Source of the DNA: Elephas maximus indicus | Taxonomy: Eukaryota > Chordata > Mammalia > Proboscidea > Elephantidae | Direction: 5' to 3' | DNA length: 64,000 nucleotides | Assembly: GCF_024166365.1 (NCBI RefSeq) | Contig: NC_064831.1 | Coordinates: forward strand, 54,251,768 to 54,315,767 | Shown here: positions 28,743 through 39,533 of the stretch, piece after piece | How positions within the stretch are numbered: position 1 is the first letter of the stretch | Layout of the letters: every line of letters starts with the position of its first letter | Translations under genes and position numbers: made by a program | Notes under the pieces: model-generated | Database searches by the model: none | Told to the model about the DNA's origin: nothing | Seen by the model: only the letters and a program-made list of their open reading frames with translations

Positions 28743-29848
28743 CTGGGGAAGGGCTGCCTCATTTGATTTCTTAACCAATGCTTCCATGGGCATTGATTGT
28801 GGCTCCAGATAAAATGAAATCCTTGACAACTTCAATATTTTCTCCATTTATCATGATGTTGCTTATTGGTTCAGTTGTGAGGATTTTTGTTTTCTTTATG
28901 TTAAGGGGTAACCCAAAATGAAGGCTGTGGTCTTTGATCTTCATTAGCGAGTACTTCAAGTCCTCTTTGCTTTCAGCAAAGAAGGTTGTGTCATCTGCAT
29001 ACTGCAGACTGTTAATAAGTCTTCTTCTAATCCTGATGCTGCACTCTTCTTCATATCGTCCAGCTTCTCGGATTATTTGCTCAGCATACAGATTGAATGG
29101 GTATGGTGAAAGAATACATCCTGGACATACACCTTTTCTGATTTTAAACTGTGCAGTATCCCCTTGTTCTGTTTGAACAACTGCCTCTTAATCTATGTAC
29201 AGGTTCCTCATAAGCACAATTAAGAGTTTTGGAATTCCCATTCTTCCCAACGTTATCCATAATTTATTGTGATCCGCAAAGTCAAATGCTTTGCATAGTC
29301 AGTAAAACACAGGTAAACATCTTTCCAGTTATTCTCTGCTTTCAGCCAAGATCCATCTGACATCAGCAGTGATATCCCTCGTTCCATGTCCTCCTCTGAA
29401 TTAGGCTTGAATTTCTGGCAGTTCCTTGTCGATGTACTGCTGCAACTGTTTTTTAATATTTTCAGTAAAATTTTACTCATGTGATGTTAATGATATTGTT
29501 CAATAATTTCCTCATTCTGTTGGATCATCTTTCTTTGGAATGGGCACAAATATGGATCTCTGCCAGCCAGCTGGCCAGGTAGCTATCTACCAAATTTCTT
29601 GGTATAGACTAGTGAGCGCTTCTAGCATTGTATCCATTTGTTGAAACATCTCAATTGATATTCCGTCAGTTCCTGAAGCCTCGTTTTTCACCAATGCCTT
29701 CAGTGCAACTTGGACTTCTTCCTTCAGTACCATGGGTTCTTGATCATATGCTACCTCCTGAAGTGGCTGAATTTCAACTAGTTCTTTTTGGTACAGTGAC
29801 TCTGTGAATCCCTTCCATCTTCTTTTGATGCTTCCTGCATTGTTATTA
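28743..29848 (-). mobile_element. RTE-clade LINE, reverse transcriptase segment (inverted)
   Basis: Minus-strand frames carry BovB/RTE reverse transcriptase motifs. K-N-E-A-S-G-T-D-G-I lies near 29,680. Q-Y-A-D-D-T-T-F-F-A lies near 28,975-29,005 and holds the catalytic Y-A-D-D. L-N-I-K-K-T-K-I follows near 28,870-28,900. Stops and frameshifts show it is dead. The thumb and 3' end are missing. Confidence 0.9.
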
Positions 29849-30460
29849 AAAAGCTCAATATCATCACTCAGAACAAGGCCAGTGGCTGACTGCAGGACAG
29901 ACCACAATTACTCATATGCAAGTTCAAGGTGAAGCTGAAGAAAATTAAAGCAAGTCCACAAGAGCCAATGAGTACATCCCATCTGAATTCAGAGGCCACC
30001 TCAAAAACAAATTTGATGCACTGAACACTAATGACCGAAGACCAGATGAGCTGTGGAATGACATCTAGGACATCATGCATGAAGAAAGCAAGAGAGCATT
30101 AAAAAGACAGAAAAGATAAAAAAGACCAGAATGGATATCAGAAGAGACTCTGAAAGTTGCTCTTGAACGTCAAGTAGCTAAAGTAAAATGAAGAAATGAT
30201 CAAGGAAAAGAGCTGAACAGAAGATTTCAAAGGGTGGCTCAAGAAGACAAAGTATTTAATGAAATGTGCAAAGACCTGGAATTACAAAACCAAAAGGGAA
30301 GAGCATGCTTGGCATTTCTCAACCTGAAAGAACTGAATATTCAAGCCCTGGGTTGCAATATTGAAGGATTCTACGGGCAAAAAATTTAACGAGGCAGAAA
30401 ACATCAAAAGAAGATGGGAAGAACACAGAGTCATCCTGCAAATGCTAATGTATTTCCGGA
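29848..30460 (+). mobile_element. RTE-clade LINE, endonuclease-RT linker segment
   Basis: Plus-strand sequence reading F-D-A-L-N-T-N-D-R-R-P-D-E-L-W-N-D and P-E-W-I-S-E-E-T-L, the region between endonuclease and RT. Its right end repeats about 40 bases that also begin the inverted RT segment (CATCAAAAGAAGATGG...CACAGAGTCA). Dead: stops occur throughout. Confidence 0.85.
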
Positions 30461-30484
30461 ATGAAAGGGTGGTGGCTCAGACTT

Positions 30485-30508
30485 ATTTGCATACCCACAA
30501 TGCACTGC
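30485..30508 (+). promoter_or_regulatory. U5 distal sequence element (octamer plus ZNF143/STAF-like site)
   Basis: An exact octamer ATTTGCAT lies at 30485-30492 (-213 to -206 from the U5 start). It is followed directly by ACCCACAATGCACTGC, which resembles the SPH/STAF site bound by ZNF143. Vertebrate snRNA genes carry this Oct-1/ZNF143 pair at about -200 to -220, so type and spacing both fit. Confidence 0.8.
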
Positions 30509-30635
30509 ACATAGTACCAGTTTAAAGTGCCAGAAATTTTAATTCTATTTAACTCATACTTTCAAAAATTGTAGTTTTTTATTTACAAAATTCTGTGAAA
30601 TTTTTTCTTCAGGCACTGGGTTTTGGCGATAAATA

Positions 30636-30655
30636 GCCACCATCAGTGTACTAGG
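30636..30655 (+). promoter_or_regulatory. U5 proximal sequence element (candidate)
   Basis: GCCACCATCAGTGTACTAGG lies at about -62 to -43, where SNAPc binds snRNA promoters, and has the CACC-AT core of the PSE. The match in its second half is moderate. No TATA box follows at -30, which fits a Pol II (U1/U2/U4/U5-type) rather than a U6-type promoter. Confidence 0.6.
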
Positions 30656-30697
30656 AGTTTCTGTTACCCGAGGTGTAAGTTACACAGACAGTAAGAT

Positions 30698-30813
30698 ACA
30701 CTCTGGTTTCTTTTCATATCGTATAAATCTTTCGCCTTTTACTAAAGATTTCCGTGGAGAGGAACAAGTCTGAGTCTTAACTCAATTTTTTGAGGCCTTG
30801 TGTAAGCAAGGCT
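30698..30813 (+). ncRNA. U5 spliceosomal snRNA gene
   Basis: This is a 116-base match to U5 snRNA, the RNA of the U4/U6.U5 tri-snRNP that aligns the two exons during splicing. Numbering by position, loop 1 (GCCUUUUACU, 37-46) is intact at 30734-30743. The Sm site (AAUUUUUUG) is intact at 30784-30792. The 3' hairpin stem GCCUUG/CAAGGC is intact around a changed loop. Compared with human U5A as I remember it, I count about eight differences: 2 U>C, 15 C>U, 20 G>U, 71 C>G, 85 C>U and 105, 107, 108 in the 3' terminal loop. None falls in loop 1 or the Sm site. Upstream and downstream snRNA control elements are present, unlike most U5 pseudogenes. No poly(A) tail follows, so it is not a retrocopy of the RNA. 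Identity is near certain; expression is inferred. Confidence 0.92.
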
Positions 30814-30823
30814 GGTTTATGTT

Positions 30824-30836
30824 GTTAAACGAAAGA
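30824..30836 (+). terminator. U5 3' box
   Basis: GTTAAACGAAAGA starts 11 bases after the RNA 3' end. It fits the Pol II snRNA 3' box pattern GTTT-N-AAA-NN-AGA that directs Integrator-dependent 3' end formation. Confidence 0.75.
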
Positions 30837-30889: not shown

Positions 30890-31055
30890 TGCTGTGGGTA
30901 CACCAGTGAAGACGTTGACTGCTAACAAAGCATAACTGTTAAGAGTTCAAATTTATCAGCTTTTTTTTGGTAACTTTGTGGTATAGGTTTACTCTGTCTT
31001 GTAAGGTAGTAATGAGTGAGAATTGACTCAACAGCAATGGTTTAGTTTGGTTTTT
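30890..31055 (+). repeat. AfroSINE, strongly decayed
   Basis: Degenerate head, but a recognisable tail GAGAATTGACTCAACAGCAATGG then TTTGGTTTTT. Lies about 55 bp beyond the U5 3' box. Confidence 0.75.
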
Positions 31056-36998: not shown

Positions 36999-39533
36999 CA
37001 GGCATACCTCAGAAACCCCGGTGGCGTAGTGGTTAAGTGCTACAACTGCTAACCAAAGGATTGGCAGTTCGAATCCACCAGGCACTCCTTGGAAACCCTA
37101 TGGGGCAGTTCTACTCTGTCCTATGGGGTCACTATGAGTCAGAATTGACTCGACAGCACTGGGTTTGGTTTCTGGGTTTAGGCCTACCTCGCTTTACTGC
37201 ACTTCACTTTATTGCACTTCACAGATACTGCGTTTTCACAAAATTGGAGGTTTGTGACAACCCTGTGTCGAGCAAGTCTATCAGCGCCATTTTTCCAACA
37301 GCATGTGCTCACTTCACGTCTCTATATCACACTTTAGTAATTCTCAGAGTATTTCAAATTTTTCATTATAATTTTATCTGTTATGGTGATCTGTGATCAG
37401 TGACCTTTGATGTTACTGTTGTAATTGTTTTGGGGTGCCACGAACCACGCCCATATAAGATGGCAAACTTAATAAATGTTGTGTGTGTCCTGGGCGCTCC
37501 ACTGACCAGCCGTTCCTCATCTCTTTCCTCTTCTTGGCCCTCCCTGTTCCTGAGACACAACAATATTGAAATTAGGCCAATTAATAACCTACAAGTGTTC
37601 AAGTAAAAGGAAGAGTCTTACTCTCTCACTTTAAATCAAAAGGTAGAAATGGTTAAGCTTAGCAAGGAAGGCATATCAAAAGCCAAGACAGGCTGAAAGC
37701 TAGGCCTCTCGCACCAAACAGTTAGCCAAGTTGTGAAGGCAAAGGAAAAGATCTTGAAGAAAATTAAAGTTCTACTCCAGTGAACACACAAATGATAAAG
37801 CGAAACACACTTATTACTGATATGGAGAAAGTTTTAGTGCTCTGGAGGGAAGACCTAATCAGCCACAACATTCCTTTAAGCCAAAGCCTAATCCAGAGCA
37901 AGGCCCTAACTCTCTTCAATTCTATGAAGGCTGAGAGAGGTGAGGAAGCTGCAGAAGACAAGTTTGAAGCTAGCAGAGGTTAGTTCATGAGGTTTAAGGA
38001 AAGAAGCCTTCTCCATAACATAGATCTGCAAGCTGAAGTGGCAAGTGCTGATGTAGAAGCTGCAGTAAGTTATCCAGAAGATCCAGCTGAGATCATTGAT
38101 GAAGGCGACTGCCCTAAACAGCCAATTTTCAGTGTAGATGAAACAGCCTTATATTGGAAGATGCCGTCTAGGACTTCCCTGGCTGGAGAGAAGTCAATGT
38201 CTGGCTTCAAAGCTCCAAAGGACAGGCTGACTCTCTTGGTAGGGGCTAATGCAGCTGGTGACTTTAAGTTGAAGCCAATGCTCATTTACCATTCCAAAAA
38301 TCCTAGGGCCCTTAAGAGTAATGTTAAATCTACTCGGCCTTGCTCTATAAATGGAACAACAAAGCCTAGATGACAGCACATTTGTTTAAAACATGGTTTA
38401 CTGAGTAGTTTAAGCCCACTGTTGAGACCTACTGCTCAGAAAAAAAATATTCTTTTCAAAATATTAATGCTCATTGACAATGCACCTGATCACCCAAGAG
38501 CTCTGATGGAGATGTACAAGGAGATTAACGTTGTTTCCATGTCTGCTAACACAATATCCATTCTACAGCCCATGGATCAAGGAGTAATTTCGACTTTCAA
38601 GTCTTATTAAGAAATACATTTTGTAAGGCTATAGCTGCCATAGATAGTGATTCCTCTGATGGATCTGGGCAAGTAAATTGAAAACCTCCTGGAAAGGATT
38701 CACCACTCTACATGCCATTAAGAACATTTTTGATTCACGGGAGGTCAAAATATCAACATTAACAGGCGTTTGAAAGAAATTGATTCCAACCTTCATGGGC
38801 TCAAGACTTCAATGGAAGAAGTAATTGTGGTGGAAATAGCAAGAGAACTAGAATTAGAAGTGGAGCCTGAAGATGTGACTGAATTGCTGCAATCTCATGA
38901 TAAAACTTCAACGGATGAAGAGTTGCTTCTTATGGATGGGCAAAGAAAGTGGTTTATTGAGATAAAATCTATTCCTAGTGAAGATGCTGTGAACATTGTT
39001 GAAATGACAACAAAGGATTTAGAATATTACATAAACCTAGTCGATAAGCAGTGGCACGGTTTGAGTGGATTGACTCCAATTTTGAAAGAAGTTCTGTGGG
39101 TAAAATGCTATCAAACTGCATTGCATGCTACAGGGAAATCTTTTGTGAAAGGAAGAGTCAACTGATGCAGCAAATTACATTGTCTGATTTTAAGAAATTG
39201 CCACGGCCATCCCAACCTTCAGCAACTACTACCCCAAGCAGTCAGCAGCCATCAACATCAAGGCAAGACCCTCTACCCAGCAAAAGATTACCATCAGCTG
39301 AAGGCTCAGATGATGGCTAGTACTTTTTAGCAATAAAGTATTTTTTAATTAAGGTATGTACTTTTTTTTTTTAGACATAATGCTATCCCAGACTTAACAG
39401 ATTACAATTTAGTGAAAGCATAACTTTTCTATGCACTGGAAAACCAAAAAATCCATAGGACTCACTTTATTGCAATATCTACTTTATTACAGTGGCCTGG
39501 AAGGGAGCCCACAATATCTCCGAGGCATACCTG
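36999..39533 (+). mobile_element. Tigger1 DNA transposon, near full length
   Basis: Left end CAGGCATACCTC and right end GAGGCATACCTG are inverted repeats. A TA dinucleotide precedes the left end; the right flank reads TG. Inside are broken frames of a pogo-type DDE transposase. They include [19 protein letters not shown] (first Asp, near 38,130), [18 protein letters not shown] (second Asp, near 38,470) and Q-P-M-D-Q-G-V. At least four stops or frameshifts disable it. Removing the AfroSINE leaves about 2.35 kb, close to Tigger1's usual 2.4 kb. Confidence 0.94.
37011..37179 (+). repeat. AfroSINE inside the Tigger1 left inverted repeat, 11 bp TSD
   Basis: Target duplication AGGCATACCTC (37000-37010) against AGGCCTACCTC (37180-37190). 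A complete sense copy. Confidence 0.95.

Follow-up and report, generated by a model that had tools for sequence, protein, structure and literature searches.

Human RNU5 genes carry peaks of POU2F1 and ZNF143, and no GABPA peak appears for them in the excerpt of PMC3499247. One of these genes, RNU5B-1, lies at chr15:65304718 (PMC13400782, in extract), and variants of it have been linked to neurodevelopmental disorders (PMC12165836). Those human U1 variants that have been tested are unstable and are targets of the exosome (PMC7328512). Maturation by TOE1 depends on Sm assembly (PMC10801842). In the open-licence literature on elephant or Loxodonta U5, nothing was found on the locus described here.

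This locus lies in a window of 64,000 nucleotides, the whole stretch of DNA that was analysed, at C17:54251768-54315767 of a 3.40 Gb assembly. In our judgement it is probably an intact U5 gene, transcribed by Pol II from its own promoter, duplicated as DNA from an RNU5B-1-type unit (or from a parent common to both) and kept by purifying selection. Scanned against Rfam over its whole length, the window yields the U5 snRNA (RF00020) at full length at 30698-30813 on the plus strand (108.4 bits against a threshold of 40, E 1.7e-18), exactly where a sequence-only reading of this DNA had placed it. The match covers model positions 1-117 of 117 and is the sole match in the window above an Rfam gathering score. 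All 30 of the 30 model pairs are standard pairs. That reading had also held that loop I, the Sm site and a paired 3' hairpin are kept, and they are: loop I (GCCUUUUAC, 30734-30742, plus strand) is intact in sequence and falls inside the aligned Rfam loop, the Sm site (AAUUUUUUG, 30784-30792, plus strand) is intact and has the canonical motif, and every model pair of the 3' stem is standard in the terminal hairpin (30793-30813, plus strand).

The window's U5 has company in the genome. Scoring with RF00020 gives at least eight U5 loci in the assembly, a lower bound, as scoring covered 46 of 225,200 first-look candidates and would pass over weak old pseudogenes; the window's locus (L002) is second by score among the matches listed. 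Six of these eight listed loci have their octamer between -212 and -228, and four of the eight (L001 to L004) have a strong proximal sequence element (PSE) at -60 to -62 by a matrix that three of them trained, while L007 and L008 have neither octamer nor PSE. The assumption that U5 copies are mostly retro-pseudogenes is not upheld among the listed Rfam matches. L003 is on C15 and L004 on C37, and a search beside them for NPPA/NPPB, a guess at the RNU5E-1 region, gave no convincing match. L001 is on C3 near KIF2C: the first residues of the KIF2C protein find a match 11 kb from L001 and 17 kb from L005, in what we take to be the neighbourhood of human RNU5D-1/RNU5F-1. In the same KIF2C-side cluster on C3, L006 (about 99 kb from L001) and L005 are diverged U5 copies with an octamer, at 74.6 and 75 bits. 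Their PSE matrix scores are low (7.2 for L006, 1.7 for L005), and from their sequence they are probably decaying or variant genes.

The distal sequence element (DSE) of the window's unit is exact. Its octamer, a POU2F1 site (ATTTGCAT, 30485-30492, plus strand), matches the consensus and shares one base with a STAF/ZNF143 site (30492-30509, plus strand) that matches the 18-letter consensus without exception; the composite is exact at 30485-30508 and starts at -213, in agreement with the octamer and ZNF143-like site proposed at about -210. With consensus letters taken from a figure legend of PMC5493778, a single copy of the composite is found in the window, and none of 100 shuffles contains it. 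By itself the octamer is nothing unusual, with 8 copies in the window against a mean of 3.9 in shuffles, and one other 18-letter STAF site in the window has 1 mismatch. By a matrix made from other U5 genes, the DSE ranks first in the window. Upstream of it stands an ETS-like word (TTTCCGGAA, 30453-30461, strand unassigned) common to L001 and to L027, a unit treated below. The human pattern of POU2F1 and ZNF143 without GABPA, as far as the excerpt of PMC3499247 reports it, fits this DSE and offers no factor for the conserved TTTCCGGAA; GABP is a conceivable third activator here.

The PSE, a predicted SNAPc site at 30637-30654 on the plus strand (-61 to -44), is the best of 127,966 window positions by a matrix trained on the PSEs of L001, L003 and L004, with the window's own left out. 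The PSE-like element suggested at about -60 is thereby confirmed in place; its rank, a measure taken on sequence, is one of homology to other U5 PSEs and of good preservation, and is no independent test of binding. Of the 12 letters that the published consensus specifies, 10 are present in the PSE, a score that 51 of the 127,966 positions reach, and the same consensus gives 10/12 for L003 and for L004, 8 for L001 and, by eye, 12/12 for L027. This consensus discriminates poorly, for the promoter-less L007 has a 9/12 site in the corresponding stretch and L001 only 8. No TATA box was seen by eye at -35 to -20, as had been claimed. Transcription by Pol III, which terminates at T runs, was judged unlikely on the sequence, given the missing TATA box and the T6 run that the RNA contains. 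A short kept stretch downstream of the PSE, GTTACC (30663-30668, plus strand, by eye), deserves mention: GTTAC lies about 26 bases past the PSE start in six of the eight promoter-bearing units (L001, the window's, L003, L004, L025 and L027) and by eye is not present after the PSE in L005 and L006. It is possibly a second, U5-specific core element near -35. The 3' box-like word (GTTAAACGAAAGA, 30824-30836, plus strand, at +10) is indeed the best match downstream of the RNA, with 9 of 12 letters, but its score is equalled by 976 of 3000 random 45-base stretches and so alone is not above chance. It is compatible with an snRNA gene and is no evidence taken singly.

PARP16 is the neighbour of human RNU5B-1, and the human order is RNU5A-1, RNU5B-1. 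In this assembly a PARP16-type exon (PF18084) is found at C17:55438601-55438774, and in the adjoining 40 kb a BLAST search with the window's unit picks out two U5 units; the idea that this genome is without U5 at the RNU5A/B position was rejected on that account. L027 (C17, about 55461.5 kb) has its octamer at L027:1505, its RNA 3' end is visible and 84 of its RNA bases read N; because its RNA is mostly N, it was not reported by the Rfam scan. The other unit, L025:9511-9797 (C17, about 55449.5-55449.8 kb, octamer at L025:9520), is degenerate: the octamer, STAF-like and PSE-like sites and GTTACC are recognisable, and its RNA gives no Rfam match to U5. The order fits RNU5A-1 for L025 and RNU5B-1 for L027; L025 being at about the position of RNU5A-1, that gene may be defunct in this genome.

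Among the relatives found, the window's unit is closest to L027, from which it is 1.18 Mb away on one contig. The two share the octamer, STAF site, PSE, GTTACC, Sm site and 3' hairpin, and differ at 4 of 22 PSE positions and in the 3' apical loop; with 84 bases reading N, the L027 RNA is mostly uncomparable with the window's. Their promoters are 79% identical over 248 bases, spacer included (window 30426-30671), whereas the window's spacer compared with that of L001 is at chance identity (49% versus 47% for shuffles). Since the homology to L027 covers the promoter including the spacer, the window's unit was, by all that its sequence tells, copied at the DNA level from the L027 gene or from a parent of both. 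With the spacers diverged by 0.31, the duplication would seem to be old, dating back tens of millions of years. The other matches listed between the window and the PARP16-side neighbourhoods look like dispersed repeats, judged by their multiplicity.

The setting agrees with what had been described. Using human protein queries, tblastn finds a DAPK2 exon at 9374-9309 and, between 58892 and 52158, exons of CIAO2A, all of these on the minus strand, which supports a location in the gap between DAPK2 and CIAO2A. The gene had been called hidden; this is true for protein-based annotation, but a plain Rfam scan finds it at once. Repeats do lie on both sides, with LINE-like matches stopping at 30434 and SINE-like matches starting at 30915; the nearest dispersed repeats are some 20-100 bases from the unit. 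A LINE reverse-transcriptase fragment (RVT_1) lies at 28774-29187 on the minus strand, and an inverted repeat pairs 29802-29845 with 30387-30430. The region 30192-30430 (plus strand) and the RVT_1 fragment may together be a 5'-inverted LINE end adjoining the U5 unit. That this LINE carried the unit along by 3' transduction was judged unlikely, since RVT_1 is on the minus strand and the 3' end of the LINE would face away from the unit. Further along the window, sub-threshold matches to mir-1261 (37816-37900, 67.7 bits, cut-off 91) and mir-1255 (38928-38993, 28.5 bits, cut-off 63) are perhaps transposon remnants.

The comparison with L027 also bears on constraint. Of 102 aligned sites in the upstream 45 bases, the DSE and the visible RNA, 11 differ, compared with 73 of 245 in the spacers and 3' flank (Fisher p 1.0e-4, or 1.5e-4 with the PSE on the element side), where the upstream 45 block was chosen after the alignment was viewed. 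K2P distances are 0.078 for the DSE, 0.127 for the upstream 45, 0.137 for the visible RNA and 0.215 for the PSE, against 0.312 for the spacer, 0.394 from the PSE to the start and 0.496 for the 3' flank; the PSE, with its 4 of 22 differences, is not clearly slower than the spacer. The slower divergence of the DSE region and the visible RNA suggests, at the level of sequence, purifying selection. From L001 the RNA differs at 13 positions, one of them in a paired column, a C to U change that keeps a G-U pair (binomial P 0.0012 for 1 of 13). Private RNA positions among the four genes number 6 in the window's, 5 in L001, 7 in L003 and 13 in L004, a count that underestimates changes and in which the status of 84-85 hinges on the alignment. 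Without selection, 18.0 private changes would be expected at half the spacer divergence (P 0.001) against the 6 observed; at a branch of 0.10, 11.6 would be expected (P 0.057), which is not striking. The window's bases unlike all of L001, L003 and L004 are 15, 71, 84, 85, 105 and 108. Of the bases that had been named as diagnostic, 20 is not so, being common to L003 and L004; bases 15, 20 and 71 are outside the comparison with L027, as they fall in its 84 N.

We infer transcription, processing, Sm assembly and function of the window's U5 from these features. POU2F1 and ZNF143 would bind the DSE and SNAPc the PSE, from which, without a TATA box, Pol II would start at 30698. Integrator would cleave downstream of the RNA, at the weak 3' box; AAUUUUUUG would be bound by Sm proteins and TOE1 would trim the RNA end. 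The RNA, a minor variant in sequence whose loop I is unchanged, would then enter U5 snRNPs. The weak point of this proposed working is the Sm region, where a 5-bp hairpin, CUCAAUUUUUUGAG, is possible in the predicted fold.

How far such a working gene can be trusted depends on the rivals, of which the insertion of a U5 RNA by LINE machinery, giving a retro-pseudogene, is by far the weakest. A LINE-derived repeat does lie just upstream of the unit, and two of the eight listed U5 matches, L007 and L008, are without an octamer; yet promoter and spacer are homologous to L027, which an RNA copy cannot carry with it, and no A-rich tail follows the RNA. A retrocopy origin was rejected given the 79% identity upstream, leaving it hardly any probability, and the claim of a promoter-bearing U5 gene stands on the RNA match, the DSE, the PSE and the promoter homology to L027. 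A different proposal accepts the gene and makes it a specialised one: in this lineage the unit at about the RNU5A-1 position (L025) would have lost its RNA while the duplicate persisted, and the bases peculiar to the duplicate that precede the Sm site or lie in the 3' apical loop would give the snRNP a stability or tissue use of its own, under selection. We regard this as quite improbable.

Two rivals concern present activity, and each is unlikely to about the same degree, somewhat less so than specialisation. The unit may be a former gene, functional for most of its history and silenced fairly recently, with little or no transcription now. Its PSE scores 10/12 where L027 has 12/12 by eye, its 3' box is weak, dispersed repeats come within about 20-100 bases and other units are dead or decaying (L025, L005, L006); but the DSE is exact, all RNA pairs are kept, and the PSEs of L003 and L004 likewise score 10/12. 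Alongside recent silencing, an RNA that is transcribed and soon lost has to be taken seriously, because TOE1 maturation needs Sm assembly (PMC10801842): the RNA would be made by Pol II, poorly loaded with Sm proteins and degraded by the nuclear exosome instead of matured by TOE1, in the manner of the human U1 variants (PMC7328512, likewise in extract). The CUCAAUUUUUUGAG hairpin, at -4.7 kcal/mol against -0.1 in L001 and 0.0 in L003, and the mean unpaired probability of the Sm region, 0.51 against 0.67 and 0.73, speak for this. On the other side, the Sm motif is canonical, L004 is similar to the window's U5 (-3.5 kcal/mol, 0.48), and the selection on the visible RNA suggests that the product is used. 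The intact, Pol II-transcribed gene stays the reading that we prefer.

The case is useful for annotation and is otherwise ordinary biology, of modest consequence beyond it. It offers a small worked example of snRNA gene turnover, in which one unit was copied as DNA with its promoter and apparently kept and the unit at about the RNU5A-1 position decayed. Telling working snRNA copies apart matters for disease genetics, as RNU5B-1 illustrates in the part of PMC12165836 available.

The window's U5 is one of several promoter-bearing U5 genes and belongs to a known family. L001, L003 and L004 resemble it in their RNA (91, 89 and 83% identical), in their octamers (at -220, -212 and -212) and in their PSEs (at -60, -62 and -60), and differ from it in their promoter spacers, which are 49, 55 and 56% identical against 47-48% for shuffles. 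Outside U5, the human U1 variant genes are comparable as variant snRNA copies with a recognisable DSE, PSE and 3' box, in the excerpt of PMC5493778; those are genes for U1, and the variants put to the test are unstable (PMC7328512), whereas the window's copy is a U5 with a canonical Sm motif.
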